From positions 1 to 64,000 of the forward strand of contig DUON01000001.1 in NCBI GenBank assembly GCA_012838805.1: a stretch of 64,000 nt of DNA, given 5' to 3'. Position numbers and translations under genes: made by a program. This document shows, piece after piece, positions 6,095 through 24,120 of this stretch. Under the pieces are notes generated by a model that saw only the letters and a program-made list of their open reading frames with translations, did no database searches and was not told the DNA's origin. The first letter of the stretch is position 1. Each line of letters begins with the position of its first letter. The stretch comes from Clostridiales bacterium (GTDB lineage Bacteria > Bacillota > Clostridia > Christensenellales > DTU072).

Positions 6095-6126
6095 AAAAGG
6101 GAAAAGTATATACGCTTTCCCCTTTT
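6095..6126 (-). terminator. Terminator of the giant surface-protein operon
   Basis: A 12-base-pair stem (6095-6106 with 6115-6126, one G-U pair) with an 8-base loop, followed on the minus strand by TTTTAATTTC. It begins 25 bases after the stop of the 3113-codon gene. Confidence 0.75.
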
Positions 6127-6150: not shown

Positions 6151-9100
6151 TCAGTCGTATTTTCGCCTAAAGAGCATATAGAACAACAGCACAAGTCCGA
6201 ACAAAGCCACAGGAGCAATAAACAGTAGTATTGTGGTCGTTCTGTTGAGTCCGGGCTTGGACGCCATAATCACTAAGTCGCCTAAGCCGTCAGCGTTTAA
6301 GACCAAGAACTCTCCTTCACGATATGCGGGCAAGAGCTCATAGCTGCCCCCCTCGCCAAAATGAACCACTACAAGATTTTTCTTGGACTGCATATTTGCA
6401 GGCAGCCTTAACTTTATCTGCGTGCTGCCTATCGGCTCTTCCCCGCCCAACTGAAGCCTGTATGCAAGCTCCGCCTTATATTCGCTTAAGAAGTCGGTGC
6501 CGGAGAAGCTGTTTTTCAATTTCTCATTTAGTAAATAGAAGTCAGGATTTGATATATTCGCCTCGATTAATTTCGCATTTAAGGTGGTATACGAACCGAA
6601 TTCTCCCAATACAACGGCAAGACCGTTTGAGGACTCTATCTCGCTGACCTTTCTTGGGATTATCGTTATGTAAGCGGGGACATACTCAAATCGATAGTTT
6701 TGGCTCTCCGCCCCAAAAGGCATAATTTCCATTTCAGTAATCGCCGTTTTGGGCACATAGGGCAAAAATGCGGGTTTTTGCAGGTATTCACGGTTCTCTC
6801 CCGACACAAAGCCGCTATACTCAATAGTCGCCACAAACTTATCCCCTTCGTTTAAAATGGCTCGGGTTGAAGAATTAATTAGCGCCATTATGATGAGGTC
6901 TTTTTTTGCTATCACAAAGGAGTGGCTGTTATTGGTTATTTGATAATTGTTGCTGTCTATGTCCACATTCATTTGATATTCTCCAGCCGATTTTACGGAC
7001 TGGGGAGAATAAGTTACGATAAGACTATTGTCGGTTACTGTCTCCAAGTCTTGAGGAAGGATTTCTCCGCTCCTGATGCTGACTTGGACGGTCTTATATG
7101 TGCCGTCATATACAAAGTCGCTCTCGCCGTACTCTACCGTTATTGTCCTTTTTTGGATTGTCAAAGGAATTTGCACTTCTCGGGGCAGATAGTTGGGGTT
7201 GTTGAGTTCTGTATTGAAAGAGGCGTGTATCGTATATTCTCCCGCTTCGGGATATGTGTATCCCGTTGCATTAGGAACGATATCGATTTGTATGGACTGG
7301 TTCAAGCCTCCCGCACCTTGAGCCCTTGCGGTGATATCGGTCACAGCGCCATAAATTTGATTTTGGGAGCCTAAGAAAGTAATATTGACCTCCGCGGGGT
7401 TTATTTGTATCATTATTACATCGCCTTGCCAGTATGGATAGTCCTCGTCCTGAGTTTCGAGAATCATTTTGTAAAGCCCAGCCTCTGTGGGCAACGATGT
7501 CATGTATTCCCCTTCGGGTGCGCCGAAAACCTGATATTTTACTGAATGCTTTACATTGACGCCGTCAAGACCGCTCACCGTATAGGTCGCAGTTTTGGGC
7601 AAAGAATCATAAACAAATATCACGCCTTTAGTGCCCTCAATGGGTTTGTTATCCTCTACGCTTACTTGAGGCGTATATTCAACAATGTGCCCGGTGATAG
7701 TAAATGATTTTTCTATAAGATAATAGTTTTCGTTATCTATCACGCAGTCAGACACGGTGATTGTTTCGCCCGTTCCGCCCGGCATGGGGCTGGAAAACTC
7801 CGCGTTGTAGCTTATGAGTTTCACAATATCGCCGGGAATAATGTCCCCTTCTCCAAATCTGTAATGCTTTTCTTGCAGATTAATGGTAGTGGTATTGTTG
7901 TAAGACTTATAATAAGGGCTATGATTAAAGATTCTTATGCCCTTTTGAAGAATTGTCAGTGTTCGGGGCACATATACAAACTCATAGTTTCTGGTCACAT
8001 CCAAGTGAATTCCCGTCTGTTCTTGATTAATGATTATCGTTTCAAAATCGCAAACGGTTTGCTTGTCCTCGCCCGCCGACTTGTCAAGCGTGGTTATAAG
8101 CCCTTGCGCCACATAGTGGTCTGGTGACTTTAGCCCTTGGACGATATTGGGATAATTAAGCGGTATAACAAACGGCTGTCCGTCATATACTTTCTGCCTT
8201 TGGATTTCGGGATTGTGGTCAAGGTCTATTATGAGCTGGGCGGGAATAATTTCCACAAGCTGGTTTTGTCCGTCAAAAATAATATATTGATTGGTCACAT
8301 CCTGCCCTAATTGGTTATAAATTGTAATCAAAGTGTCGGGCACCAATCTATGTATTCCCACATCCCGCGATTCGCTCCGCCTTATGCCGGAAGTAATGTT
8401 ATGCCCCTCCAGAAGCCCCAAACTGTCAAATATATCAAGTACTCTATTATTATCAGCGTTCTTGACAATCATATCGTTTGTCAGTTCCACTCTGTAATAA
8501 TCAGCATCGTATACATGTTTGGGCATTTCTGCGCCTGTATTTACATCCACGACGATTTGCCTTGGGCGGATTTGAGCAAAGCTCTCCCTTTGATATCTTA
8601 GGTTATAGTTCGTAAGACTGCTTTCACCGTCTTTGTTGAGAATCTCTACTGCTTGATAATTCCAATTCTTGTATTGCGCCACATTGCCGTCCGAGGTATA
8701 GAGCCTATAACATGCGTATTCACCCGAAACAAGCCCAGACAAAGATACCAGGTCGGAAAGATTGTCATTAATGATTGCACCGTCTTCCAACAGTACTTCG
8801 CCGTTTTGAAAGCCCACAAGAATATCAAGAGGCTGTCCGTCATAATATTTTTGAATTTTCGTCTTGTATTCGTCGCTATGCGAATAATTAATTAAAGTCA
8901 AAGTCAAATCTTTTAGCGTAATGACCGCTACCGGCAAATGAGTCTCATAGTCGGGATATCGGTCAACAATATTATACCATGTGCCAAGGTTGTATACATT
9001 CTGATAATAGTGGATATCATAGTTTACCGTCACATCTTCTTGGTTGGGATTCTCTATGACGATATCTTTTCCGACCACCAAGGGTTTGTGCGTGACATTG

Positions 9101-12100
9101 CCCTCATCAAAAGCAACATCGGGGGTTTGTGTGATAAGATAACCGCTTGAGGGGCGTATTATATCTCTATTTATAAGCACTCCGCTTTGGTTAAGGTCTC
9201 CCATAAAACCACTGACCAGTTTTCCGTCAGTTTCGTATAAGTCAACTACCATTGAATTAATTATTGTCAGTTGGAAAGGCTGACCGTCATAGGGTTTTGT
9301 ATGAGGAGGCACTCCTTTCAAAATATCTATTACTATTGTTTGGGGCAAGATTGTTACAAATCTTTGTTCAAAATTCTGTTCGGTTGTTTCAAAATCAATA
9401 TCATAATTGTTCGTGACAACCTCTCCTTGGTTATCCAATATAACAATATCGGAACCCCAAATCAAAGGTTTTGATATAACTTCATTAAGTGCGTTTCTGG
9501 ATACAAAACTATCCTCGGACACAAGGGAACCGCCCACAATTGTGTGACCTTGGACTATCAAAGGATATTCCTCTTTCTCAATAGACATTTGAGTATGAAG
9601 CCCTATCTCAAACACACGCCTATCATAGGGCTTTATGAAAGAATTGTTTTCATCATATGCGCTTGTGTCGCCTGTTTGGTCTCGGGCGACATCAAGGAAT
9701 ATCTTTCTCTTATAAATTTCAAAATAGCTATCTTCATAGCTTATGTCATAGTTGTCGGTCACATCATCTTCAGCGGAGTTGAATATCAAGGCGTTCTGAT
9801 AGTCTTCAAGCAAGATACGCTCTCCCACATTTTTGTCAGAGGTTATTCTGCTTCCGTCTGCAAAGAAATGTCCCGCCACCAGCTCAAACCCCAGACCGTT
9901 TGTGTCATTGTCAAACAAATCAATATAATAATTCCTAAAGTCCACGGTAAAATAGTTATCAAAATACATACCATTAAGACCGCTTATCAAATATTCATCT
10001 CTATGCCACAAATCCGAATGTCGTACGCTTATTGTAATATTGCGTTTTTGAATCTCCACCTTTCCGCCGTCAAACGGATATACGAAGCTATAATTGGATG
10101 CAAGGTTTCCTTCCACGCCCTCTCTATTTATTATTATTTGTGCTTCACCTTGCAGTCCCATGTCATAAATTCCAAAGTCAACCCCATTTGTTCTGACAAA
10201 GCTGCCGTCCCCCAAATAGTCCATTCCTTCAAGTCCAGTCAGCATATTAGGAGTCAGTATGACTTCAAGCTTTTGTTCGTCATAAACTTTTTTGAGCCAG
10301 CCGTCCTCAAGCTCAACATTTAAGTTTATATCCACGACCTTTTTATTTATGGCGACTGTGACATAGGCGAAGGATATATCATAGTTATCAGTAACATCTT
10401 CAGATGAATTGTGTAAGATTTTGACATTTTCATATAGAAGCGGTTTTTGGCTTGCTACAAATTCGTCTTGTGTATAAGCATTTCCCGTAAGATTATGCAT
10501 AAAATCTACAGTACGGACAAGACCCGCTTCAAGGGTGTCTTTGTCGGCGTCCATACTGTTGTTCAATTCAATTCTATATTCAAAAGTATCGTATGTCTTA
10601 AACAAGTCATATTCTGAAAGACTGACATCGATTTGAATAGGTCTTTTGAGGATATCTATATAAGCCTCTAAGTAATTAAAGGAATAGTTATGAGTTGCCA
10701 GCGCACTTCCCACTTCGTCTTGGATATATATCTGATCGACAGGGTATATTATCTCAATGTTTTCTCCTGCGTTAATCTCTGACGCCAGCAAAGGCTGGGA
10801 ATCTTGCGATACCGTATGCAGACCCACCAAGCCGTTGACAAGAGGCTGATTATGTTCGGTAACCATAGCATCCGTAATCGGAAAAGCGTGGACCTCTCCT
10901 TTATAGACCGCTTGCATGGAGTATTGGTTTTGCATAACGATATCCACAAGCTTAGGCAAAATCTTGACATAATTGTTTTGTAAAGCTATTTGATAATTGT
11001 TTGAACTGTCCGCTCCGTCCGCCTTTGTAATATAAATATCCAAGAAGATTCTCAACTCTTTGGGAATATAGTCTCCAAATTCGTCATATACAATTTCGCC
11101 ATATTCATTTAAGGTATATACATTGGCGTCCCAGCTTTGGCTAAGCTCGTCCCATGTGGAGAGCAATCCCCCGCTGATTTTTTCGCCGTCAATCAATTTG
11201 TTTTCAATATCCATTTCGTCGGTGACTTCTATATCAAACGGCATGCCGTCATAGTGCTTTTCTTTGGGGAAACTGGTGTCATTATATATGTCAATAGTCA
11301 AAGTTATGGGATAGATTATTGCTTTTCTATTGACAAAATCTATTTGATAATTCGCCGTCAAGTTATTGAGCGAAGGGTCGGTTACTGTCAAATCATAGTT
11401 TGTGGAAAAGTCCTTGGGCGCGGCTTGCATATCGATTAAACGCACATCGGGATCGGCTGTTCCCCTATATCCCCAGAGCGAATGCCCTTCCACAAGACTT
11501 CCGTCCACTATCATAGAGGGCTCAAAATCAGAAGAGACCTCAATCATCACTATTTCGCCGTTATATGTGGTTTCATAGATATATTCGGGCTCTTCAAGCG
11601 GGAAGATATCTATTAAAATCGGTCTTTTTTGCACATTTGCCCCTATTGTGGAGACTAAGGTATAGTTTTCCGCATAATCGATGTCTTCACCGTCCAATAT
11701 GCGTATAACCTCATGAACAATATTTAATGGGATATTCGTTCCGGCGTTTGAGTGTGCGGTAATAAATGAACCAAATACAATATGGTCTTCCACAAACACA
11801 GTTTCAAGAGAATTCTCTTGATTATAGTTGTTATAACTATAAGTAAAGATCAAAGAATATTCCAAAACAGGGGTATCTTCGCCGTCGGGGATATGCCTAT
11901 AAACCATACCGCTTGACAAGTCGATATAAATCCTTGTTCCGTCATAGCCGTATTGGATATTTCCGCCCTCAATGCTTACATTTATTATCCTCTTTTCTAT
12001 ATCAGCTTGGTTGAAGTCGGTTGTCGCCAAGTTATAGTTTTCAGTCACATCATGTTCATCTTGGTCCAAAATAATAAGCTCTGAAGTAACCGCCGTCAAT

Positions 12101-15100
12101 GCAATATTGCGTCCCACACTCGCGCTTACGCTCTCAAACCATAACGAAGAAGGCAGAATATAATGACCGCTCAAAAGCCCCTGCCCTGTCATGCTGGACG
12201 AAAACGGGAGACGGTAGGGCATGCCATCATATGTTTTTATATATGACTCGGAGCCTAAAGGCTTGGTGTTCACTTGGAAATCTCTTTGAGTGATTTCTCC
12301 CCTGCATTCGCTGGGCACCACAAAGATATAATTTTGGTCAGGTCTTTGTTCGGCAAAACCGCTTATTTTAGAGGCAATCACTATATATTCAATAAATATC
12401 TTCTTATACCCTACTCTTACCGTCTGATAAGCGTCTTCTTCGGAAAAATCTTGATAGCCTGCAATATCCGCATAGAATATTTTTTCGCCATAAGGCAATT
12501 CGATATCCACATTTGCGGCATTGACTGCCCTTTGATAAGGCGTCAAGGGGTCATATTCTCCAATCAAGTCCAGACCATAATCAAATTCAGGGTCTTTAAG
12601 GCTAAAGCGCAAAGCTTCATTGTCGTATGTCTTTAATAATCTTAAGTACGCCGTATTGTCGCCGCCTTGAACAGACAAGTCCGCTTGAATCTCTTTGGGT
12701 ATGATTTTTATCTTATTGTCTCCATTTATGAGTTCGGCATGCAAATTCTCCGAATGAGTTCCGATAAGTTGAGCGTCCAAAACGCTGTGTGAATAAGAAT
12801 CTGAGCAATTCAAGTCGTACAAAAGACAGTTATGCAAGACATCGATTTCAAAAGTCTGACTTGGAAAAGCGGGAAAACCGCCCACGGTATAGCCCTTGGT
12901 GACGGTGAACTGTTTGGTATAATAGTCCGCCACACCGTATTCCACTTCAAACTCAATAGGCTCGATAAGCACCGTCCTCTTAGAAATAACAAGCTGTCCG
13001 TTTGCCGCCAGAGCAAAGTCATAATACGGATGTGTGTTCAGCTCAATCTCAATATACTCTCCCACATTCTCAAACAGGCTGGTATCCGCCGTCCTCGCCA
13101 ATAGACTTATTAAAGAATCTATATCGCTGTCACGCGCTCCCGATATAGACTTGAAACTAAATTCAGGGTCCAAGTCCCCATAAAATTTTTCAGCGTCCGC
13201 AACCTCAAAGCTCAATTGCCCTTTTATCACCTCAAAAGGCATACGGTCTGAAGATATCTCAATATTGTAGTTTAAGCCGAAATAATTCTCCCATTCGCTG
13301 TCTATAACTTCCCAAGACTCGATTATCAAATAATATGTGAATTGTGGCAAAAGCTGGGTGGGCTCGCTGTTTAAGCCCTCATAGACCAAATCTCCGCTTT
13401 CATATTCCAATCTATAATACACCTTAAATATGCTTTCGGGGTTGTCTTGATAAAAGTTTTGATATAGATACTCAAATCCCAGCATAATATCGTTGCCATA
13501 AATCATCTGCTGATTGGGAACGGGGGAGATAGTCATTTGGGTAGGATTGATTTTTATTACATCCTCATTTATGCCCGCAAGTCTATAATCAATAATTCCT
13601 TCCCCGCTATGGTCAGATAAATATTCGTCATAAGAAATCCATTCAGCCAAGGAGTTTATATACACCTCTAAGACCGTATCCAACGAATATGTGTTTAACT
13701 TATCCAAAAAGCTCTCAATTACTATATTATAGTTATAGGTCATCAAGTCAAGCTCGTCATCAGTAAAACCGCCTTGACCATACACGGGCTTAAGTTCGAT
13801 TTCCAAGTCTCCGATAAATAAGTCATTATGGGCATTGGGCTGTTCACTCATATCTGGCGCCAAAAACTTCGCCTTGACAATGAGTTCAAAAAGTGCATCT
13901 TGCCCGATGATAAAATCAGTGATGCTCGCTTGAGCCGTCACCGAAGCGTCGGCAAGGCTGTTATATTCCTTATGAAATTCTATATCGATCCCGTCTATAT
14001 TCAAATCTTTAGCAAATAGAGAAAAAAGAGGCATGATATTCAGGCCCATGACATTTTCGGGATTGTATAAATTGGTGGGGTCGACAATTCTATAATTATC
14101 AATTTCTTGCAAAGGCATCAGCGGATATTTGGTACGCCCCTGCGCTATCATATCAAGTGAAAGATACACATTAAGCGGATCGGGGTACTCAATGCCGATA
14201 TCTTGAAGCTGAAATGGCATAACGAATCTTTCGTCATTATAGAATTCTGTGACTTCGCTTATGTCGTTTGGATAGAAATCAGTAAGGAGTTTATGGTAAT
14301 ATAAATGGTTTTGAAAGGTCGCATAGTCATAGGTTCCACGCACAATATGAGGAAGCGTAAAATAAATTCCGTCCACTTGGGCGGGATACAATCCCGTCAT
14401 CTGATAGAAAAAGTCTTGGGTTAAGAAATCGACTTGATAGGAATCCGGCAAACGCTCTCCATAAGTGCCTGTTATCTCAGCAAATTGAAGTGCCAAAACA
14501 GCCTTGTCCACAAACCCGTCTTGACCAGTAACGGAATCAGCATCAAATTGATAGTTGGAGTGAACAAATTCCTCAAAATAAATCTCATATGATTTTTCCG
14601 ATTCGGCATGTTTGGTCAGATAATGTCCATAAACATACCCCGCCCCCTCAAGCTCTATCAGCTCTCCCAAATCGGTAAAGTACAAATTCTTAATTTGTTC
14701 AGCGACAAAAATTTCAAAATCAAAACTTCCGCTTAGCCACGACTCAATGTTTTCCATAAAGCCGTCCAATACCTCATTGGCTTTTTGACCATTGTTTTCA
14801 AGACTTAAAAACAAGCTTGTTAAAGCCCGTTCATAATCTATTCTTATAATAAGATAAGCGTCTCCGTTTTGGCAAAATGCCGTATTGCTTTCAAGAAAAG
14901 CAACGCTGTCTTGATAAGAGATACTATATTCTGTCTCAATATTTTGGGCTAAGAAATCAAGGGCGCTTTCATAGTTTCCGTCTATGAAAACAATCATTTC
15001 ATAGCCTTTCATATCCACTGTAGAATCGTATGTCTTAATGGGATTTATGCCAATAAACCTATGGCTTTCGGGAGAGAGCTCTGCTTTTTGGATATTGAGT

Positions 15101-15492
15101 TCAACAACGGGTTGTTTAGACCAAATTTGATAATCTTCATGTTCAATTGAAAAAATCAATTGATAGGTTCCCGCATTGAGTATGCTTGTCTGATTTGTAA
15201 TAGTAATATCTGTACTGTCGATATCGCCTATGGGCGCCAATGTTTGAGCGTCTGAAATCTTCAAGACTCCAAATAATTGGGCGTCAGGGTGACCGTCCGC
15301 AAGATAATCGCCCATCTTGTATGACAGCTCGTATCCCTCTTCAAGTTCAATGATTACATCAGTCTTGGTTTGGGCATAAGCTTTTTCCATTACAAGCCCT
15401 CCCCAGCCCAATAAAAGAATTGAACATAGAATAAGAACGATTATCCCAACCGCTAACACATGTTTGTCTTGCCTTAATAAAGTCATAGCCAC
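6151..15492 (-). CDS. Giant cell-surface protein with tandem MBG/Ig-like repeats (3113 aa)
   Basis: A secreted, membrane-anchored repeat protein; function not known. The N-terminal hydrophobic helix (about residues 14-36) ends in AYA-QT, a plausible signal peptidase I site. A C-terminal helix (TTTILLFIAPVALFGLVLLF) followed by RRKYD would leave almost everything outside. No LPXTG motif is present. Between residues ~950 and ~2440, about 13 degenerate copies of a ~110-residue module carry [K]xYDGxPFxI, then GLVxGH, then NYxI and a closing beta strand. This is the look of MBG/bacterial Ig-like domains; a YGDLDPEFSF segment near residue 765 matches the MBG_2 type. The last ~450 residues (FVYDSLPK, QIYGAVTDITARAQG, FVYDGTYKTV) parallel the neighbouring 2451-residue protein. 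A role in adhesion or as a stalk is inference. Confidence 0.85.
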   Translation of the reverse strand: MAMTLLRQDKHVLAVGIIVLILCSILLLGWGGLVMEKAYAQTKTDVIIELEEGYELSYKMGDYLADGHPDAQLFGVLKISDAQTLAPIGDIDSTDITITNQTSILNAGTYQLIFSIEHEDYQIWSKQPVVELNIQKAELSPESHRFIGINPIKTYDSTVDMKGYEMIVFIDGNYESALDFLAQNIETEYSISYQDSVAFLESNTAFCQNGDAYLIIRIDYERALTSLFLSLENNGQKANEVLDGFMENIESWLSGSFDFEIFVAEQIKNLYFTDLGELIELEGAGYVYGHYLTKHAESEKSYEIYFEEFVHSNYQFDADSVTGQDGFVDKAVLALQFAEITGTYGERLPDSYQVDFLTQDFFYQMTGLYPAQVDGIYFTLPHIVRGTYDYATFQNHLYYHKLLTDFYPNDISEVTEFYNDERFVMPFQLQDIGIEYPDPLNVYLSLDMIAQGRTKYPLMPLQEIDNYRIVDPTNLYNPENVMGLNIMPLFSLFAKDLNIDGIDIEFHKEYNSLADASVTAQASITDFIIGQDALFELIVKAKFLAPDMSEQPNAHNDLFIGDLEIELKPVYGQGGFTDDELDLMTYNYNIVIESFLDKLNTYSLDTVLEVYINSLAEWISYDEYLSDHSGEGIIDYRLAGINEDVIKINPTQMTISPVPNQQMIYGNDIMLGFEYLYQNFYQDNPESIFKVYYRLEYESGDLVYEGLNSEPTQLLPQFTYYLIIESWEVIDSEWENYFGLNYNIEISSDRMPFEVIKGQLSFEVADAEKFYGDLDPEFSFKSISGARDSDIDSLISLLARTADTSLFENVGEYIEIELNTHPYYDFALAANGQLVISKRTVLIEPIEFEVEYGVADYYTKQFTVTKGYTVGGFPAFPSQTFEIDVLHNCLLYDLNCSDSYSHSVLDAQLIGTHSENLHAELINGDNKIKIIPKEIQADLSVQGGDNTAYLRLLKTYDNEALRFSLKDPEFDYGLDLIGEYDPLTPYQRAVNAANVDIELPYGEKIFYADIAGYQDFSEEDAYQTVRVGYKKIFIEYIVIASKISGFAEQRPDQNYIFVVPSECRGEITQRDFQVNTKPLGSESYIKTYDGMPYRLPFSSSMTGQGLLSGHYILPSSLWFESVSASVGRNIALTAVTSELIILDQDEHDVTENYNLATTDFNQADIEKRIINVSIEGGNIQYGYDGTRIYIDLSSGMVYRHIPDGEDTPVLEYSLIFTYSYNNYNQENSLETVFVEDHIVFGSFITAHSNAGTNIPLNIVHEVIRILDGEDIDYAENYTLVSTIGANVQKRPILIDIFPLEEPEYIYETTYNGEIVMIEVSSDFEPSMIVDGSLVEGHSLWGYRGTADPDVRLIDMQAAPKDFSTNYDLTVTDPSLNNLTANYQIDFVNRKAIIYPITLTIDIYNDTSFPKEKHYDGMPFDIEVTDEMDIENKLIDGEKISGGLLSTWDELSQSWDANVYTLNEYGEIVYDEFGDYIPKELRIFLDIYITKADGADSSNNYQIALQNNYVKILPKLVDIVMQNQYSMQAVYKGEVHAFPITDAMVTEHNQPLVNGLVGLHTVSQDSQPLLASEINAGENIEIIYPVDQIYIQDEVGSALATHNYSFNYLEAYIDILKRPIQIDVSLSEYDLFKTYDTFEYRIELNNSMDADKDTLEAGLVRTVDFMHNLTGNAYTQDEFVASQKPLLYENVKILHNSSEDVTDNYDISFAYVTVAINKKVVDINLNVELEDGWLKKVYDEQKLEVILTPNMLTGLEGMDYLGDGSFVRTNGVDFGIYDMGLQGEAQIIINREGVEGNLASNYSFVYPFDGGKVEIQKRNITISVRHSDLWHRDEYLISGLNGMYFDNYFTVDFRNYYIDLFDNDTNGLGFELVAGHFFADGSRITSDKNVGERILLEDYQNALIFNSAEDDVTDNYDISYEDSYFEIYKRKIFLDVARDQTGDTSAYDENNSFIKPYDRRVFEIGLHTQMSIEKEEYPLIVQGHTIVGGSLVSEDSFVSRNALNEVISKPLIWGSDIVILDNQGEVVTNNYDIDFETTEQNFEQRFVTILPQTIVIDILKGVPPHTKPYDGQPFQLTIINSMVVDLYETDGKLVSGFMGDLNQSGVLINRDIIRPSSGYLITQTPDVAFDEGNVTHKPLVVGKDIVIENPNQEDVTVNYDIHYYQNVYNLGTWYNIVDRYPDYETHLPVAVITLKDLTLTLINYSHSDEYKTKIQKYYDGQPLDILVGFQNGEVLLEDGAIINDNLSDLVSLSGLVSGEYACYRLYTSDGNVAQYKNWNYQAVEILNKDGESSLTNYNLRYQRESFAQIRPRQIVVDVNTGAEMPKHVYDADYYRVELTNDMIVKNADNNRVLDIFDSLGLLEGHNITSGIRRSESRDVGIHRLVPDTLITIYNQLGQDVTNQYIIFDGQNQLVEIIPAQLIIDLDHNPEIQRQKVYDGQPFVIPLNYPNIVQGLKSPDHYVAQGLITTLDKSAGEDKQTVCDFETIIINQEQTGIHLDVTRNYEFVYVPRTLTILQKGIRIFNHSPYYKSYNNTTTINLQEKHYRFGEGDIIPGDIVKLISYNAEFSSPMPGGTGETITVSDCVIDNENYYLIEKSFTITGHIVEYTPQVSVEDNKPIEGTKGVIFVYDSLPKTATYTVSGLDGVNVKHSVKYQVFGAPEGEYMTSLPTEAGLYKMILETQDEDYPYWQGDVIMIQINPAEVNITFLGSQNQIYGAVTDITARAQGAGGLNQSIQIDIVPNATGYTYPEAGEYTIHASFNTELNNPNYLPREVQIPLTIQKRTITVEYGESDFVYDGTYKTVQVSIRSGEILPQDLETVTDNSLIVTYSPQSVKSAGEYQMNVDIDSNNYQITNNSHSFVIAKKDLIIMALINSSTRAILNEGDKFVATIEYSGFVSGENREYLQKPAFLPYVPKTAITEMEIMPFGAESQNYRFEYVPAYITIIPRKVSEIESSNGLAVVLGEFGSYTTLNAKLIEANISNPDFYLLNEKLKNSFSGTDFLSEYKAELAYRLQLGGEEPIGSTQIKLRLPANMQSKKNLVVVHFGEGGSYELLPAYREGEFLVLNADGLGDLVIMASKPGLNRTTTILLFIAPVALFGLVLLFYMLFRRKYD

Positions 15493-15501
15493 CTCAATAA
15501 T

Positions 15502-18500
15502 TTAAGCTCTTTTCTTTATTATTATAATCGCTATAAATATCGCTGCCAAAGCTATGCCGATAGTCAGATATATCCAAATATTATCTTTGGACTTATCCTC
15601 TTCCACAATGATACTGAAGTTGCCCAGCTCGCTGACCGTGAACACTAAGTATTCGCCGTCTACTACGCCGTCCTCAATAATCATTACGCTGCCGTCTTCT
15701 CTGATATGCGCAATCTTATAGCTGTCTTGTCCTCTTAAAGCGCCGCTTAACAACAACCTTACGGTTATATTGTCGTCTTCCACAGTGCCTTGCATTAAGG
15801 ATATCTGATAAATTTCGCTCAGTGTTGTATTTTTATAATCTTGATTTGTCAATTTGAAAACATTATATGTGGCGCTCACCTTGCTTAAAGAGCCACTCTG
15901 AATGACCCTGACATTCAAGGAGCTGTCGGGGCTGAAAGAGCCTTGCAGTTCAAGCCCTTCGGTATAGGATGTATTCGCCACAAGCTTAACGGCGTTGACC
16001 ACAAGAGTGCCCTCGCTATAGCTGATGATATAATTTACGCTTTTTGCCCCCTCAGGTCTTATCCTATAAATTCCCGGAGTTTCCGGCCACCCCTCAACAA
16101 ACTGTTCTATATCCAAATCAAAATATTTTATTATCGGCTTGGTCTCAAAGTCGTTGATGCTTTGCCCGGCGGGGATATTCTCTATTGTGAACGAATAGCT
16201 GGGCCTATCCCCTTGGTCAATAACAATATCATTGACAATGATATTGACAGGACGCGGGGTTATCTCAAACAAACCGCTTATATTTCCGCTGAAGAGATAA
16301 TTTTTGCTCGGGCTGACCGCATAATAAATGTATATGCCGGCGTTTTTAGGCGCTATTGAGCTTATGACACCGCCTTGATTGTCCACATTTATGAAGGTCT
16401 CTTTGCCGTCCTCGACAAGGGCATATTTTATATCGGCGTATTGGGGCATGCCATTTATGTCATAATAACTCGCCGTCGCCCTTTTCATAGCGCCGTCATA
16501 GATATAGTCATTCATCTTTTCCAAAGTGACGGGTATAGTCGCCGGATTTATGGAAAGGTATTCTATCTCTTCCGCAGCGTGATAGTTCGCCGTCGCGTTA
16601 TAAATAGCTTTCGCAGTATAAACCCCGGCGTCGGCGGTGGTGATATTTACTTCTTGACCGTTTTGGTCAAAGTACCGCACAGGTACGGTTTGAGTATATC
16701 CCTTAAGACCATGCGCCCTGCCCGAAACGCCCGTTACACTGCCGTATGTCTGTACAAGGTCGCCGTTTATCTTTATTTCGACTTCAGCCTTTCGGATTAT
16801 CATATCCGCCTCCAGATTCCTGCTCACATAGTTCGGGTCATTTGTGGTGACGGTGACCCTGTATGTTCCTGCAGTAGTAGGAGGCTGCTCTGTTGGACCA
16901 TAGGAAGTAGTGCCCGTTCCTCGATATGTTAAGGTATAATTTACCACATCGCCCTCAAGTCCCGTAACGACGGGAGTAAGCGTTTTGGGCTCAGCGTCAT
17001 AAACAAATTCTTCAGATAACAAGGAGATATTGAGAGTTATTTTGGTGATTTCTCCCTCGCACTCAAAGCGTCCGTTGGCAAGTCTATAATTCAAATTATC
17101 AATTTCCAATTCCTCAAAGACCACATTGTGCTTGCCGACTTCAGGACTGGTAAATGTCGCAAAGAATGAAGATAACAAGACGACATCCATACTGTCCTTA
17201 AGGTAGTGGTGAATGACGCCCTCAAACTTATAATGCCTTGTCTGAACGAACTGATTGGCCTCCACGGTGCGGTCATACGGTTTTATTATCCTATCCGCCC
17301 CGCTTGCGGTAATCTCTTTTTTATCAATAAAAAGATTGGCGGTTATGTCGACATTTATCCAATAGTTATCCGCGCTTCCGCCCTCCAGCGATACTTCATA
17401 TCCCATAGGATTGAAATCTATGGCGTTTTGAGGGATATTCAATACGGGATGCATAAGGTTAAGAAGCGCCTCTAAAGTCCGATGACCGGATATATGCTCC
17501 GTGCTTCCGTCCTCATAGATTTTGAATACCGGAGGATTGGGAACAATATCCTTGCCCAAGTATCCTTCATATGTCAATTCAAATGCGGGATACTGCTCGC
17601 CGTAGGTTATTTGGGCGTCTCTTAACCTTGCCGTCAGCATAGCTTTTTGCACCACAAAGACATGCTCTTCTGGTTCTGCCGCGGTATAGTTCTTGGTTTG
17701 ATTTGCGCTTACTCGGAATATGTATTCGCCCACATCCACGCATTCGGTCACGCTTTCGTCACGGATATAATCCCCTGTTGACTCGTCATACACCATTTTT
17801 GCGACCAATACGACATGGAAGTTTGCTGCGGAGATATTATAATTCATAGAAAAGGCGAAAGGTATCTCTCCCTCATAGGGGTCAGGACCTAACAAATTCA
17901 TGAAATGAGGTGAGTTCTGCTGCTCCGTTCCCGTATATACGACAGTCGTATAATTCGGATTGACCAAAATTTCGGCATTCTTTCTAACAACATAAAAACT
18001 TGCCTCATAATAAGCAAATTCGTAGTTATCGGCGTATGTTCCGCTGGCTATTATGTAATAGCGGTCTACTTCGGATTCTTTATTTAATTCACCCCACTCT
18101 ATATTGGGCTTAACAAACCCTGCGGGAATCTTAGACGGATTGTTGGGATCTTCTTGGTTCTGCCAACCCTCATAAAAGATTTCCAACTTATCTTGCGGGT
18201 TTTCGTCGCCATAAGTTTTTTCAAGCGGATATCTGTCTAAATCAGGGTATAGGTGTTGTTCTTCGGGCGGAATCTCTTTTCCTCTTATGCCCACCAATAC
18301 CAAGGTTTTTTGTATTCTGAATACTTGTTCCACCCATTCTGAATCGGTATAGTTTTCAGTGCCCTCTCCGCTTGCCTTTATTCTAAAGAGATAGTATCCG
18401 GCGTTCACCGCTCCCGTATAGACCCTCTGCTGAGTGCCTTCGATATAACCGCCTTCGCCGTCGTCTTGATATTTATAGATTTCAATTATCATAGACGACA

Positions 18501-21500
18501 AGGGCACATGGGGCACAGCGATATATCTGACGCCCTGTGCGTCGGGCGGACTGGCTTGAGGGTCCAATACCTCATACGGCAAGCCGTTATAATACCATTC
18601 TTCAACAAATTGCTCAATCTCGAATTCCAAAGAAACCTGCGCAGGCAGAATCTCAATAAACAATAGGTATTCGGCATTTTCATCATAATGATAGTTCTGT
18701 ATTGCTCCCTGTTCGTATTCCAAGGTGAAAGTCACCCTATATTCACCAGCGTTTACAATTCTGGTGTCCATACTGTTATCAAACAGCCGTCTGGTTAGGA
18801 TGATTTCATATTCGCCCAAGGCGTTTTTCATTTCGACTTGGATATATACCCCTATTTCGGGATTGTTGATAGAAAAATTGTTCAGGTCGTTGTTTATACC
18901 GTTTATCCTAAAGATATTCCCGTCATATATTTGAACAATCGTTTCGTCGGCTACGGTGACTTGTGTCTCAGCATAGCCAATCCTAAAAGTAATAAACTTG
19001 GATGTAGGCGCGTAATAATAGTCGGGGTTGGGGTTTGCGTAAAGCATAATGGCATATTGTCCCACATTTTTAGCGTTCAAATAATCTTTGGGCGGTCTTA
19101 CATCTATTTTTTGTTCATACTCTTCTATTTCTTCGTTGTCATCGGGTATCCATTCTCCACCCACTTTGACTATGACGGGTTTGAATTCGGGAATTCTTTC
19201 GCCGTTTTCGTCCAAAATATATTCCCCAAGCTCATTTTTCCTATAAAAGATATGACGGGATATATCAAAATCTCCGTCAATAGGACACCAGCCTACAACC
19301 GCGCTTTGTACCACGGAATCGTCTATGGCCGTATAGATAAAAGCCGCCAACGGATTAGGCTCTTCGCCCTCTTCTTGCATTGCCCAAGCGGTCTTATCGG
19401 GGTCGTATATGACATCTATTTCTTCTTTGGTCACTTGTATGACGGCTTTGACGGGTATAATAGTAAAAATCGCATCATATGTAGGGGATAGATTAAAGCT
19501 ATAATTGTGAGCCGCACCGTCCATGGCAAATATGCTATATTCTCCTGGCCAAGCGGGGTGCTCTTCTGTCTCGACTATATTCCCATAATAAATTTTTACA
19601 TGCTCGAATACGCCAAAGCTCATATTGTCGGGAGTGTCTTGGTTCAAAAAGCCTTGATACAATACCGTACAGAAGAACTGTTGATAGTTTGAGCTATACA
19701 TACGCCAGCCCCATTGGGAAGTGTCTTGAGTGTCTTCCTTGTAAGGCATGGGGGTATCGGGAGGGTTTGGTTCTCCAAATACTTTCTTTGAGGGACTCAG
19801 GTACACATTGAGAACTGCCGGCGATATGGTCAGATATATGAGCTCGGGTTGAGATGCTTGACAATTTGACGTTTCGGGCAAAGACACTTCTATCAGATAA
19901 TTTCCCGCAAGCGTAATAAGGCGGATTTGTTCTTGATAGCCGTATTCAGATATCGGTAGTGTCTGCGATTCCCAATAAGGGCAGTATTCCAAAACATTGA
20001 TGTTGATTCCCAGACCGTTTTCGCCTATTATTTCTTCCCAATCTTGATGACCATATAGATTTATTTGTAAAAAGTCTTGATAACTGTCGTCGTCTTGGTC
20101 CTCTAACATACTGGAATGGCGGCGTCCGTTATAGGTGACATTGCGGTTGGGGCTAAAATCCCATTCAGGGATTTCTTTATTAATCTGCAAAAAGGCTATC
20201 CTATATTGGTCGTCGGGAACAAATTCATAATTTTCACAGTCAAAAGCCTTAAGGTTTATTGTGATGCCGGGGTTGACGGCAGGGGGTGTATATTCGTTGA
20301 TTTCTCTTCTTACAGCGCCGGGTGTGGCTTCATTGATAATGACAAGCTCATATTCGCCTGTGTTTGGATTAAAATAAAAATGCGTGACTTCAATGCTCTT
20401 TTGTCTTCCCGCTTTTTCGTGTCCCGGGGGATACAATTCTTCAAAGCAATAGTAATACAAGTCTATGGCGCTTGCCCATTCAAAGCCTGAGGGCTGGTAT
20501 CCCTCAATATACGGGTTTTCGTTAAGAATAAAGTTCGAGTTGCTTTTGGGACGGGTGTATTTTCGTGTAGTATCCTCTATATATACGACATTGCCATAAA
20601 AATCATATACTACATTGCCCATTTCGTCCAATTGGGGCTTGAGCATATAGTACTCTTCCATAATCACATTGCCTTCAGGATCATAAACGGGATCAAACAG
20701 TATCTGTCTGATAATGGGAAGAGAGGATTTAAACGCCTTTTCAAAAATCAACATCCGTCCGTCGGGGAATAGTTCGGGGTGAATCAAGGGCGCCTCTTGA
20801 GAATTCGTCATATCAAAATTAAACTTAATTTGTTTTTTATGTATGACGGCATCATGAATCTCATAACTTGAGGGAGGCAGGTATTGATTTATAAGGTAGT
20901 CTGCGCTTGTGCCGGGCTGGATAAGCTCCATAACAAAGGATACGGTTATTGTCTTTCCCGAGCCCGCATTCGCAGAATTAAAAACAGGTCTTACTCTAAT
21001 GTTTAAGTAATCTGCAGCATCGTATTCAATCTGCATGGCATCGATATAGTAAATATCAGTAATCCATTGGTCATCGAAAGTGTATTCGGAATGGTTTGCT
21101 TGCAAAAGCCCGTCATATACCTTTGTGGGTTCTATTTCAAGTCCCGTAGGAATGTTAAGCTGTATTGGGGTGACATCTAAAGAATTCGCTTTGAAGATGA
21201 TATTGACTTCACCGCAAAGATATGTATCTTCAAAGTTTTGAACTTCTATCTTTTCGCCATGATAGTATATATGGACATAGTGATAGTAAGATCCAACCAA
21301 GGGGGTGTATCTGTTATAGTTCTTTAGCCTTAATTCAGTATCGGATATACTTTTGCCTATAAAATCCACCAGCATAGGGTCGTCTATGCCCTCTCTAAAG
21401 ACGCTGCCTATTTTGACATCAATTTGTATATCGGCGCTTCCTTGTTGATAAAATCCTATGGTTTTCCCCATAAGATTCCCCGAATAGATAATCCCTATTC

Positions 21501-22857
21501 TTCCCGCACCCACACCTGATTGGCTTGTCGCCAGTTGATAGTTCAGCTCATTTATTCTGAAACCATATTGCGCGGTATGGGCATTTATGTTGATTGTCAC
21601 ATCGGACGGCAAAATTCTTGCCTCGGGAAGAACAATTTCCGCATAAGGCGCGGCAGGGCTGCCTACATACCCGCCTTCGCCGTCAGATACCACGATATAA
21701 TAGCTTCTAAGTTGCGGCACTACATTTTCATTCAAAGAGAATCTAAAGAGAATAGACTTGTCGTATATGAATTCGCCATATTGGTTCTTTGGGCTAAGGC
21801 TGCCGTCGGGACTGCCGTATTCGTTTATAAAGCAGGAATCTGTAAATGTCACCCAATCGGCATTGAAAATATAACTATTGCTTTTCATGTCATCCAAATC
21901 TTCAGCCAGCAGTCCTCCTTGCTCAGCTCCCAAAGTAATCTTGGTGCTCTCAATTAGATAATCGTACTTATCTAAGTCTTGACCAATAGAGTATAGCCTG
22001 CCCAAATCTTCGGCGCTCGGCGTTCCGTCATAGCGCTTTTCGTTCTCTAAAGCAAGAGCTCCGGAAATCAAACTGCCGCCCTCAAAAATCGCCCTATCCA
22101 ATAAAAGCGCACGCCTTCTTATCACAAAATTCATTAAATTGCTGTCATTTGCTTGATCTAATGTCCTGTATTTTATGTATGGAATCTCTTGGGATAGCGA
22201 ATCCACAAGAAAGAACCTTATCGGATAATCGCCAGCACTTCTTACCGAATCAAAATAGTGTGTCCATTCATAACCGATATTATAGCTTTCTATACTCTGA
22301 GGAAGCCCCCCATGGTTTGATTCTTGGATTTCTATATAATCTTTTATGTCTATTTGAGATGAAAGGTTATAGTATTCAATTCCCTCATAAAGAAAAGATA
22401 AGCTCATGCCGCTGCGAATGTTCATAAGGACCTTGGCATTTAATGTCAAGTCGTTGGAATCGGTATCGGTCACGCCCCGAGCGGTGACGCTTACGCTGTA
22501 AAAGCCCGCATAAGACGGAAGCTGCGACCAGCTGGGGTTGTTGTTGGTGACATTTGCGGTGTATGTGGCATGGGTTTGGGTGTTTGTAAGAGTTATGGAG
22601 TATGAACTAAGGATTTCGGGATCGGCGCCGTCTTCGCCGGGGTTGAAAATAACTTCACTTATGGGATTGAAGGATGATTTGTTCCATTCTTCATAAAAAA
22701 AGTCGGTTTTGTCAATAAAAACAATAAGGGAGTCGCCGTCTGCGGCATAGACTGTCTTGGCTTTTGGTAAGGAAACAGCGATCAGTCCAATACTAAAAAT
22801 AGCTAAAATAACGATTAAAAACAGCTTTATTGCCCTTTTTGATTTCAAGACACCCAT
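15502..22857 (-). CDS. Giant cell-surface protein with tandem MBG/Ig-like repeats (2451 aa)
   Basis: First gene of a two-gene unit with the 3113-residue protein, 9 bases apart; the second gene has its own TGAGGTGG ribosome site. A signal peptide (helix about residues 10-28, site VYA-AD) starts the protein. A C-terminal helix (IWIYLTIGIALAAIFIAIII) and KKRA end it, so it is single-pass with an outside bulk and no LPXTG. Repeated modules carry YDG or YG-x-NP signatures of MBG-type domains: KVYDGLLQ, VTYNGRRH, KVFGEPNPPDTP, QIYDGNIF, KTYGDENPQ, ITYGEQYPAFEL, FVYDAEPK, QTYGSVTGVSGRA, YIYDGAMK. The order and spacing of the last modules match the neighbour, so they are paralogues. The promoter at 22903-22931 is a perfect consensus, suggesting strong expression. 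Ligand and role are unknown. Confidence 0.85.
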   Translation of the reverse strand: MGVLKSKRAIKLFLIVILAIFSIGLIAVSLPKAKTVYAADGDSLIVFIDKTDFFYEEWNKSSFNPISEVIFNPGEDGADPEILSSYSITLTNTQTHATYTANVTNNNPSWSQLPSYAGFYSVSVTARGVTDTDSNDLTLNAKVLMNIRSGMSLSFLYEGIEYYNLSSQIDIKDYIEIQESNHGGLPQSIESYNIGYEWTHYFDSVRSAGDYPIRFFLVDSLSQEIPYIKYRTLDQANDSNLMNFVIRRRALLLDRAIFEGGSLISGALALENEKRYDGTPSAEDLGRLYSIGQDLDKYDYLIESTKITLGAEQGGLLAEDLDDMKSNSYIFNADWVTFTDSCFINEYGSPDGSLSPKNQYGEFIYDKSILFRFSLNENVVPQLRSYYIVVSDGEGGYVGSPAAPYAEIVLPEARILPSDVTININAHTAQYGFRINELNYQLATSQSGVGAGRIGIIYSGNLMGKTIGFYQQGSADIQIDVKIGSVFREGIDDPMLVDFIGKSISDTELRLKNYNRYTPLVGSYYHYVHIYYHGEKIEVQNFEDTYLCGEVNIIFKANSLDVTPIQLNIPTGLEIEPTKVYDGLLQANHSEYTFDDQWITDIYYIDAMQIEYDAADYLNIRVRPVFNSANAGSGKTITVSFVMELIQPGTSADYLINQYLPPSSYEIHDAVIHKKQIKFNFDMTNSQEAPLIHPELFPDGRMLIFEKAFKSSLPIIRQILFDPVYDPEGNVIMEEYYMLKPQLDEMGNVVYDFYGNVVYIEDTTRKYTRPKSNSNFILNENPYIEGYQPSGFEWASAIDLYYYCFEELYPPGHEKAGRQKSIEVTHFYFNPNTGEYELVIINEATPGAVRREINEYTPPAVNPGITINLKAFDCENYEFVPDDQYRIAFLQINKEIPEWDFSPNRNVTYNGRRHSSMLEDQDDDSYQDFLQINLYGHQDWEEIIGENGLGININVLEYCPYWESQTLPISEYGYQEQIRLITLAGNYLIEVSLPETSNCQASQPELIYLTISPAVLNVYLSPSKKVFGEPNPPDTPMPYKEDTQDTSQWGWRMYSSNYQQFFCTVLYQGFLNQDTPDNMSFGVFEHVKIYYGNIVETEEHPAWPGEYSIFAMDGAAHNYSFNLSPTYDAIFTIIPVKAVIQVTKEEIDVIYDPDKTAWAMQEEGEEPNPLAAFIYTAIDDSVVQSAVVGWCPIDGDFDISRHIFYRKNELGEYILDENGERIPEFKPVIVKVGGEWIPDDNEEIEEYEQKIDVRPPKDYLNAKNVGQYAIMLYANPNPDYYYAPTSKFITFRIGYAETQVTVADETIVQIYDGNIFRINGINNDLNNFSINNPEIGVYIQVEMKNALGEYEIILTRRLFDNSMDTRIVNAGEYRVTFTLEYEQGAIQNYHYDENAEYLLFIEILPAQVSLEFEIEQFVEEWYYNGLPYEVLDPQASPPDAQGVRYIAVPHVPLSSMIIEIYKYQDDGEGGYIEGTQQRVYTGAVNAGYYLFRIKASGEGTENYTDSEWVEQVFRIQKTLVLVGIRGKEIPPEEQHLYPDLDRYPLEKTYGDENPQDKLEIFYEGWQNQEDPNNPSKIPAGFVKPNIEWGELNKESEVDRYYIIASGTYADNYEFAYYEASFYVVRKNAEILVNPNYTTVVYTGTEQQNSPHFMNLLGPDPYEGEIPFAFSMNYNISAANFHVVLVAKMVYDESTGDYIRDESVTECVDVGEYIFRVSANQTKNYTAAEPEEHVFVVQKAMLTARLRDAQITYGEQYPAFELTYEGYLGKDIVPNPPVFKIYEDGSTEHISGHRTLEALLNLMHPVLNIPQNAIDFNPMGYEVSLEGGSADNYWINVDITANLFIDKKEITASGADRIIKPYDRTVEANQFVQTRHYKFEGVIHHYLKDSMDVVLLSSFFATFTSPEVGKHNVVFEELEIDNLNYRLANGRFECEGEITKITLNISLLSEEFVYDAEPKTLTPVVTGLEGDVVNYTLTYRGTGTTSYGPTEQPPTTAGTYRVTVTTNDPNYVSRNLEADMIIRKAEVEIKINGDLVQTYGSVTGVSGRAHGLKGYTQTVPVRYFDQNGQEVNITTADAGVYTAKAIYNATANYHAAEEIEYLSINPATIPVTLEKMNDYIYDGAMKRATASYYDINGMPQYADIKYALVEDGKETFINVDNQGGVISSIAPKNAGIYIYYAVSPSKNYLFSGNISGLFEITPRPVNIIVNDIVIDQGDRPSYSFTIENIPAGQSINDFETKPIIKYFDLDIEQFVEGWPETPGIYRIRPEGAKSVNYIISYSEGTLVVNAVKLVANTSYTEGLELQGSFSPDSSLNVRVIQSGSLSKVSATYNVFKLTNQDYKNTTLSEIYQISLMQGTVEDDNITVRLLLSGALRGQDSYKIAHIREDGSVMIIEDGVVDGEYLVFTVSELGNFSIIVEEDKSKDNIWIYLTIGIALAAIFIAIIIIKKRA

Positions 22858-22902: not shown

Positions 22903-22931
22903 ATTATATATATATAAGGGTACCTTGTCAA
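22903..22931 (-). promoter_or_regulatory. Consensus sigma-A promoter of the giant-gene operon
   Basis: Minus strand TTGACA (22926-22931), exactly 17 bases, TATAAT (22903-22908). All 12 positions match the consensus. The expected transcript starts near 22896, about 39 bases before the start codon, with a GGGAGGC ribosome site at 22862-22868. Confidence 0.85.
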
Positions 22932-23082: not shown

Positions 23083-23107
23083 AAAAACGGGCTTTGAACC
23101 CGTTTTT
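23083..23107. terminator. Symmetric hairpin terminator
   Basis: Perfect 9-base-pair stem, AAAAACGGG with CCCGTTTTT, around a 7-base loop, directly after the stop of the membrane-protein gene at 23110. U-runs occur on both strands, so it could act in either direction; the gene it serves is the minus-strand one. Confidence 0.85.
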
Positions 23108-23109
23108 AA

Positions 23110-24120
23110 CTACTTATTCTTCTTTTTCTTTTTGCCCTTATTTTTATTGGCTTCATAAACTGGAGTTATGATTTTTTCCGCATGGAACTGAACAAAGTTA
23201 CACCACATAACAGAGTAGAAACCGCCTCCGAATACCAAAATCAAAGCAATAATTATTACTTTTAAGAATCCGCCCAGAAGCGCTGACAATAAGAACGGAA
23301 CAGCAGATATAGCGGCAATAAAAAGAGACGGTACAAGCATGGTGATTATCAGCAGAAATGAGTTTTTGAATTTGCTTATTAAAGGCAGTTTATACATGGG
23401 AATCATGGGAAGCATATAAATTAATAATAATATGGGAAACAAAGCTATAATAGACGCAAAAATGATAAGCACCCATTCGCCTCCCCCCGCAAGCCCCTGC
23501 CAATATTGCCTAATAAAGAACACGAATGAACTGGCGACCCCAGCAAAGATTAAAGCAAAAGCAGTCATAACAATCAAGTACTGCAGCCAATTGTTCTTTA
23601 CGCCAATAAAAAATTCTTTAACTATTCTTGGCACATGGTTTCCATAGCTGTCTTTCTTATAAATAAAAGAATCCTGCCAAATGAATTTTATGGCGATATG
23701 GAACATTCCCGCAAGCCCAAAGCTGGTAAACGGAAGAGCGCATGCGCAAATCAAAAGATAAAAATGATACGCCTCAAGTATGGCAAGCCTACCCGCCAAT
23801 ACATCCTGCCCTTGACTAATACCTATACCAATATTGGACATGTAATAGGGAAGTTTGGTAGTCTTTTTCAAAAAGTATGACAAGCCCTCCATTCCGCCAA
23901 AAACATTCGGCAATACTAATGCAACGATAAGCGGTAAAAAGAAAATCAACAGAAAAAGATTGGCCAGCATAAGATAGTTGTTGTTCCTTTTGAAGGTATC
24001 CCAAAAATATCTGAACCTTCCCTCAATAATCGGAGGGTTGCCCTCAGCGCTTCTCGCCTCGGGAGCAAAAGTCAATTTGCTAAGCAAGGTTATTCTATGC
24101 TGTCCTTTCTGATTCGCCAT
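23110..24120 (-). CDS. Polytopic membrane protein, DUF624/YesL-like
   Basis: 336 residues with about six hydrophobic helices (near 45-70, 115-140, 180-205, 215-240, 260-285 and 290-315) and a very basic tail (KGKKKKKNK). The segment RFRYFWDTFKRNNNYLMLANLFLLIFFLPL after a soluble N-terminus, and GLAGMFHIAIKFIWQDSFIYKKD, resemble clostridial DUF624/YesL-type membrane proteins. Those often sit beside sugar-uptake or surface-polysaccharide genes and have no defined activity. It stands alone between two intergenic regions, with its own promoter and terminator, just upstream of the giant surface-protein operon on the same strand. A link to export or assembly of those proteins is only a guess from position. 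The DUF624 call is moderate. Confidence 0.6.
   Translation of the reverse strand: MANQKGQHRITLLSKLTFAPEARSAEGNPPIIEGRFRYFWDTFKRNNNYLMLANLFLLIFFLPLIVALVLPNVFGGMEGLSYFLKKTTKLPYYMSNIGIGISQGQDVLAGRLAILEAYHFYLLICACALPFTSFGLAGMFHIAIKFIWQDSFIYKKDSYGNHVPRIVKEFFIGVKNNWLQYLIVMTAFALIFAGVASSFVFFIRQYWQGLAGGGEWVLIIFASIIALFPILLLIYMLPMIPMYKLPLISKFKNSFLLIITMLVPSLFIAAISAVPFLLSALLGGFLKVIIIALILVFGGGFYSVMWCNFVQFHAEKIITPVYEANKNKGKKKKKNK

Follow-up and report, generated by a model that had tools for sequence, protein, structure and literature searches.

Adjacent genes for two giant, putatively fibrillar surface proteins with a related membrane end in an uncultured clostridial bacterium

CdrA is a two-partner-secreted protein of a Gram-negative bacterium, Pseudomonas aeruginosa. 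Its MBG-type repeats form a long rod with a role in biofilms, 15 MBG_2 repeats spanning 71 nm (PMC9704523). The stalk domains catalogued for fibrillar adhesins include YDG and MBG (PMC9210967), and many predicted adhesins of this kind carry no known anchor (PMC8286594). Periscope Proteins have highly identical tandem repeats in varying number, so that stalk length differs among homologues (PMC9704523, PMC8201768). The Giant1-5 proteins of Apilactobacillus kunkeei are surface proteins of 3,000-8,000 aa encoded by tandem genes in a small genome (PMC12863079), and SiiE, the giant adhesin of Salmonella, and the grappling-hook protein GhpA contain long arrays of Ig-like beta-sandwiches. The two genes analysed here, A and B, resemble each of these systems in part.

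The window (the whole 64-kb stretch of DNA analysed) belongs to an assembly with 31 contigs, 1.69 Mb in all and 95% complete. The genus-mate Clostridiales bacterium DTU072 (G001) is a 1.6-Mb biogas-reactor bin (PMC4736482); a MAG labelled DTU072 belongs to the order Christensenellales, near Borkfalkiaceae (PMC11536998). Two hits in the sister genus come from the rumen: one title names roe deer rumen, and the other is a RUG bin, taken as rumen. Both open reading frames are intact on the minus strand (Table 1). A sequence-only reading had described two adjacent giant genes filling over a quarter of the window, each with a signal peptide, a run of modules and one C-terminal helix. All of this holds, the exact share being 26.1%, with the gene order corrected: the 2451-codon gene comes first. 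The likelier start of B is the ATG at 15486, two codons past the GTG and behind GAGGTGG, giving a protein of 3111 aa and a gap of 15 bases from the A stop (9 bases to the GTG). An assembly fusion of unrelated contigs, entertained at the outset, is refuted: the pair and its flanking genes recur in the same order on an independently assembled 88.7-kb contig of DTU072 (LFSG01000028.1), and GC content is uniform.

The shared consensus promoter and the single terminator claimed from the sequence are both present. The site before A, the only 12/12 match to TTGACA-17-TATAAT in the window, is matched at the same position in relatives (12/12 in G001 and G010, 11/12 in G009), and the hairpin after B has a weak T-run. 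An 11/12 site at 15549-15521 might have served B as a promoter of its own; it was rejected, as no promoter-like site precedes B in the same three relatives. A and B are thus predicted to form one transcription unit behind a conserved promoter. Upstream of A there is always a gene for a 336-aa multi-helix membrane protein (window 23110-24120, minus strand), which is 45-58% identical across two genera and has no Pfam or NCBIfam match; a terminator of its own separates it from the operon and it is part of a larger conserved block of genes, so its adjacency to A is not taken as a sign of function.

Table 1. Positions of genes, signals and protein regions in the window
Feature	Position	Strand	Remarks
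Gene A	15502..22857	-	2451 aa, ATG start; first in operon; predicted secreted, membrane-anchored giant protein
Gene B	6151..15492	-	second in operon; 3113 aa counted from GTG
Operon promoter before A	22903..22931	-	sigma-70 consensus TTGACA-17-TATAAT, 12/12 match
Terminator-like hairpin 3' of B	6095..6126	-	12 pairs, weak T-run
Terminator of upstream 336-aa membrane-protein gene	23083..23107	-	sets that gene apart from the operon
A signal peptide, about residues 1-38	22744..22857	-	hydropathy; cleavage site by eye
B signal peptide, about residues 1-38 from ATG	15373..15486	-	hydropathy; cleavage site by eye
A transmembrane helix and KKRA tail	15511..15573	-	hydropathy
B transmembrane helix and FRRKY tail	6157..6243	-	hydropathy and model
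A MBG_2 module	17995..18222	-	above Pfam cut-off
A region homologous to B end (A 1834-2450)	15508..17358	-	beta modules, CTD, transmembrane helix; blastp E about 1e-28
B distal head region (P0001 150-665)	13498..15045	-	fast-evolving; alpha/beta stretch about P0001 164-265
B MBG_2-like module	12970..13200	-	
B array of 13 YDG-like modules, residues 1072-2519 from ATG	7930..12273	-	iterated HMM, 57-86 bits each
B membrane-proximal MBG-type beta modules	6697..7929	-	partly common to A and short B homologues
B C-terminal domain (CTD)	6259..6654	-	ZU5/GAIN-like fold by model, pLDDT about 75-88

Each protein ends in a single hydrophobic helix followed by a short basic tail, conserved and distinct in the two (KKRA in A, FRRKY in B), and the combination of signal peptide and C-terminal helix predicts an extracellular location for both. 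The HMM search that the sequence-only reading had proposed bears out its MBG modules. MBG_2 (PF18676) reaches 35 bits in A, above the curated Pfam cut-off of 25 bits; in B it scores 23.7 bits in the whole protein and 29.8 bits over the same stretch in a six-frame search. YDG (PF18657), with the same cut-off, remains below it at 20.5 bits in B and 23.5 bits in A, and the 13 modules of B are accordingly called YDG-like only; MBG_3 matches in the pair are also sub-threshold. A was rejected as a second carrier of the array, since the iterated profile found no hits in it. The A-B alignment is limited to the last ~620 aa (A 1834-2450, B 2493-3108); the homology of the proteins is thus confined to the membrane end, beyond which they differ. 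The description of the two as paralogous is correct for that segment but not for the remainder, the 13-module YDG-like array belonging to B alone. Similarly, a stalk of beta modules is found in both, as had been claimed, but the first ~660 aa of B include a non-modular region.

In their predicted extracellular location, a stalk of repeated domains recognised by sequence and model, and a transmembrane helix for surface anchoring, A and B resemble fibrillar adhesin-like proteins (PMC8286594, PMC9210967), with which they also share great length, YDG/MBG stalk repeats and a distal N-end that evolves fastest. They differ in that Pfam recognises no adhesive domain in either protein, at either N-end, in that there are two of them in one operon, and in that their anchor, an unnamed beta-domain with a transmembrane helix, lies outside the catalogued motifs. 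The likeness to CdrA lies in the MBG-type repeats, recognised in A and B by sequence; A and B differ in being membrane-anchored and in having far more divergent modules. The transmembrane helix sets them apart from the A. kunkeei proteins, which lack one and combine beta-solenoid heads with SH3b-like ends.

We favour, at a probability of roughly 0.6, the reading that A and B are expressed together as a pair of adhesin-like, fibrillar surface proteins, A a conserved fibre and B its membrane-proximal partner, here also a second fibre. Sec would export both, and a C-terminal transmembrane helix topped by the shared CTD would hold them, with no involvement of sortase. A would be the conserved long fibre, its distal end changing fastest; B, in this genus, would have its own stalk and head and form another fibre about as long. 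Particles, polysaccharide or other cells, natural candidates in digesters and the rumen, would be the expected targets of the distal ends. We infer surface exposure, adhesion and any contact between A and B; a membrane-proximal partnership is plausible from their conserved adjacency and shared anchor domain. A membrane helix with no wall linkage would be an unusual hold for a long tether under load, which counts against the adhesin-fibre reading. On balance A and B are probably adhesive fibres of an uncultured gut or digester bacterium, and an old, conserved pair.

The most informative observation is that the length of B differs between genera. A is long in both genera compared (2451-3739 aa). 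The gene directly after A in the sister genus encodes a B homologue of only 383-497 aa, which still has the final modules, CTD, helix and FRRKY tail. A whole-genome search finds this short B in 9/10 sister-genus genomes, in four of them at the same position beside A on complete sequence and in the others beside the end of A. All three genomes of the window's genus have long B, about eight times the length: 3111 and 3191 aa in two, and at least 2053 + 856 aa in the third (G002), where it is split on two contigs. The head of B is found in two genus-mates at 30-31% identity and has no match in 37 other genomes of the family, and was therefore rejected as a family-wide domain. Either long B gained about 2,600 residues of stalk and head or the sister genus lost them, the comparison being unrooted. 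If the repeat spacing of CdrA applies, extrapolation gives about 100 nm each for A and long B and about 10 nm for short B, which would then probably stay within the wall. The sequence had suggested a heteromeric surface fibre or two ligands; a two-fibre reading cannot describe an ancestral or general role of the pair, the sister-genus B being too short for a second fibre. The natural long-B/short-B pair offers a test of the effect of stalk length with the partner held constant. One short B (G003:C99:3689-4849) has an in-frame TAG, which may reflect decay or an assembly error. Next after short B in the sister genus comes a gene of some 250 codons that evolves fast (dN/dS 0.18; L054:5-760, L055:44-799, L059, L060), and beyond it there is usually a giant gene 3,500-3,900 codons long; some of these giants have a lipobox-like start.

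The repeats had been called old, constrained and divergent in DNA as well as protein, and comparison with relatives bears this out. A and B are 40% and 38% identical, respectively, to their DTU072 orthologues over the full length. All 13 modules are present in the DTU072 B, and module i pairs best with module i in 12/13 cases, module 9, the sole exception, being a tie within one percent. The modules of B are mutually only 24% identical in protein and 40% in DNA (28% for shuffled codons). Modules that are so little alike and nevertheless correspond one to one with those of a relative identify the array as old and fixed; within the genus neither the order nor the number of modules varies (two species compared). 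Tandem Repeats Finder reports no array in the 16.7 kb of A and B, which together with the low module identity and the 1:1 orthology disposes of recent slippage or a Periscope-type expansion. The resemblance to Periscope Proteins is thus confined to variation of stalk length among homologues: the repeats of B are not near-identical, their number is the same in the two species compared, and length, fixed within the genus, differs between genera at one locus. In both proteins identity to DTU072 starts at 27-33% at the N-end and increases to about 50% towards the C-end. For the sister-genus pair G009/G012, dN/dS of A is 0.09 overall, 0.16 for the first 300 residues and 0.05-0.07 for the last 1,100; short B also has 0.09. 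With dS at 1.3-1.6 the ratios are approximate; they place the sister-genus pair under purifying selection.

An AlphaFold2 model of the last 800 residues of B, made from six sequences, has a mean pLDDT of 60. Residues 250-765 of the model are beta modules, mostly at pLDDT 60-88. The expectation that structure prediction would yield beta-sandwich modules is thus borne out at the end of B but not for the two YDG-like modules at the start of the model, which have no confident fold (pLDDT 25-45). The top-ranked Foldseek matches are to titin, GhpA, DSCAM and cadherins; in VIA the middle modules match Ig-type domains, SiiE among them (Z 7.0, 79 residues, 2.4 Å). SiiE and GhpA have no detected sequence relation to A and B and differ in secretion and anchoring. 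The model of the head has a mean pLDDT of 35.6 with one stretch at 60-88; GOLD, CUB and jelly-roll assignments were rejected because their matches (Z 5-6.5) fall on stretches at pLDDT 30-47.

S-layer chains are also among the fold matches of the B end, which lends something to an alternative that we nevertheless regard as unlikely: that A and B are envelope structures, forming an S-layer-like coat or a wall-spanning scaffold, in which the beta modules bridge the wall or build a lattice and any ligand matters less than length. A strong conserved promoter, suggestive of abundance, would suit such a role, but Pfam finds no SLH or wall-binding domain in either protein, and the helix is membrane-inserted. 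The length and module order fixed within the genus and the lack of a recognised adhesive domain are likewise as a coat or scaffold would have them, and the eight or more ORFs above 2000 aa in a 1.69-Mb genome also speak for this reading; against it, B can be as small as 383 aa, and it is the N-ends that change fastest, which fits exposure better than packing in a lattice.

Rather less probable is a heteromeric fibre, a single filament into which A and B wind or stack from a base of paired CTDs. The strict adjacency and co-transcription of the genes, the homology of the protein ends and the distinct conserved cytosolic tails are what one would expect of such partners, but with only two modules in the sister-genus B, full-length co-assembly is impossible there. 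Short B, by its probable confinement to the wall, likewise cannot make a two-ligand role general. Common to long and short B is the membrane-proximal end.

That end includes the CTD, whose model, built on a shallow alignment, is matched by VIA to the ZU5 domain of ankyrin-B (Z 7.5, 112 residues, 3.6 Å) and to the GAIN domain of BAI3 (Z 6.3). Since Z under 8 can reflect a common arrangement, the ZU5/GAIN resemblance is a lead. No Pfam family covers the CTD convincingly, hmmscan finds neither ZU5 nor another named family in it, and a sequence search of solved structures gives only chance-level hits to transmembrane segments. The CxH motif unites ZU5, GPS and Nup98, and ZU5 domains and autopeptidases are known in large bacterial surface proteins (PMC3482391). 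That the CTD is a live autoprotease of this type, releasing or tensioning the fibre, is hardly credible in spite of the fold matches just before the helix, that precedent and a residual [VI]xHF motif: the CxH motif is absent, neither CTD has a cysteine, so that autoproteolysis is not expected, and the histidine itself is replaced in several homologues.

Anchoring appears to be independent of sortase. There is no LPXTG motif in the last 60 aa of A or B, and no match to the sortase family PF04203 in the 95%-complete genome, with three control genomes positive. A 190-position profile of CTD and helix matches 65/198 sampled genomes of the order, mostly on ORFs over 1,000 aa; sortase matches occur in 67/198. 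When six genomes whose listed matches end before the helix are left out, 59 remain, a few of them covering the helix partly; sortase is present in 2/59 of these and in 65/139 of the others (Fisher p about 1e-10 by genome, inflated by relatedness, and 0.047 by family, with family counts read off printed tables). The CTD alone is spread more widely, matching 44/293 genomes of the class, often with no helix. The profile matches point to CTD plus helix as an anchor common to giant proteins across the order, rarely in genomes with sortase, and a conserved anchor domain is a handle for annotating giant surface genes; with the length difference of B it is the result worth following. A doubtful extension is that it is the general sortase-independent anchor of giant fibres across Christensenellales, built on an inactivated ZU5/GAIN-like domain, with A and B meeting through their CTDs and the stalk length of B a tunable trait, set in evolution to about 10 nm or about 100 nm.

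As a separate observation, among the 198 genomes the CTD with its transmembrane helix hardly ever occurs together with sortase, a pattern confounded by relatedness. In this order of uncultured Clostridia, giant surface genes to which no Pfam or NCBIfam model gives a name occupy several percent of the small genomes. The window's own genome has at least six further ORFs of >2,000 codons in which MBG_2 or the CTD is matched, making at least eight (C5:1-7767; C1:8019 onward in L050; C13; C18 near 100 kb; C6; C19). Elsewhere in the order, a 1.1-Mb genome contains a single open frame of 18,042 codons (G110:C5:13820-67948, plus strand, L104-L106), with no Ns and 98% distinct 12-mers, which has a signal-peptide-like start and the same CTD and helix at its end.
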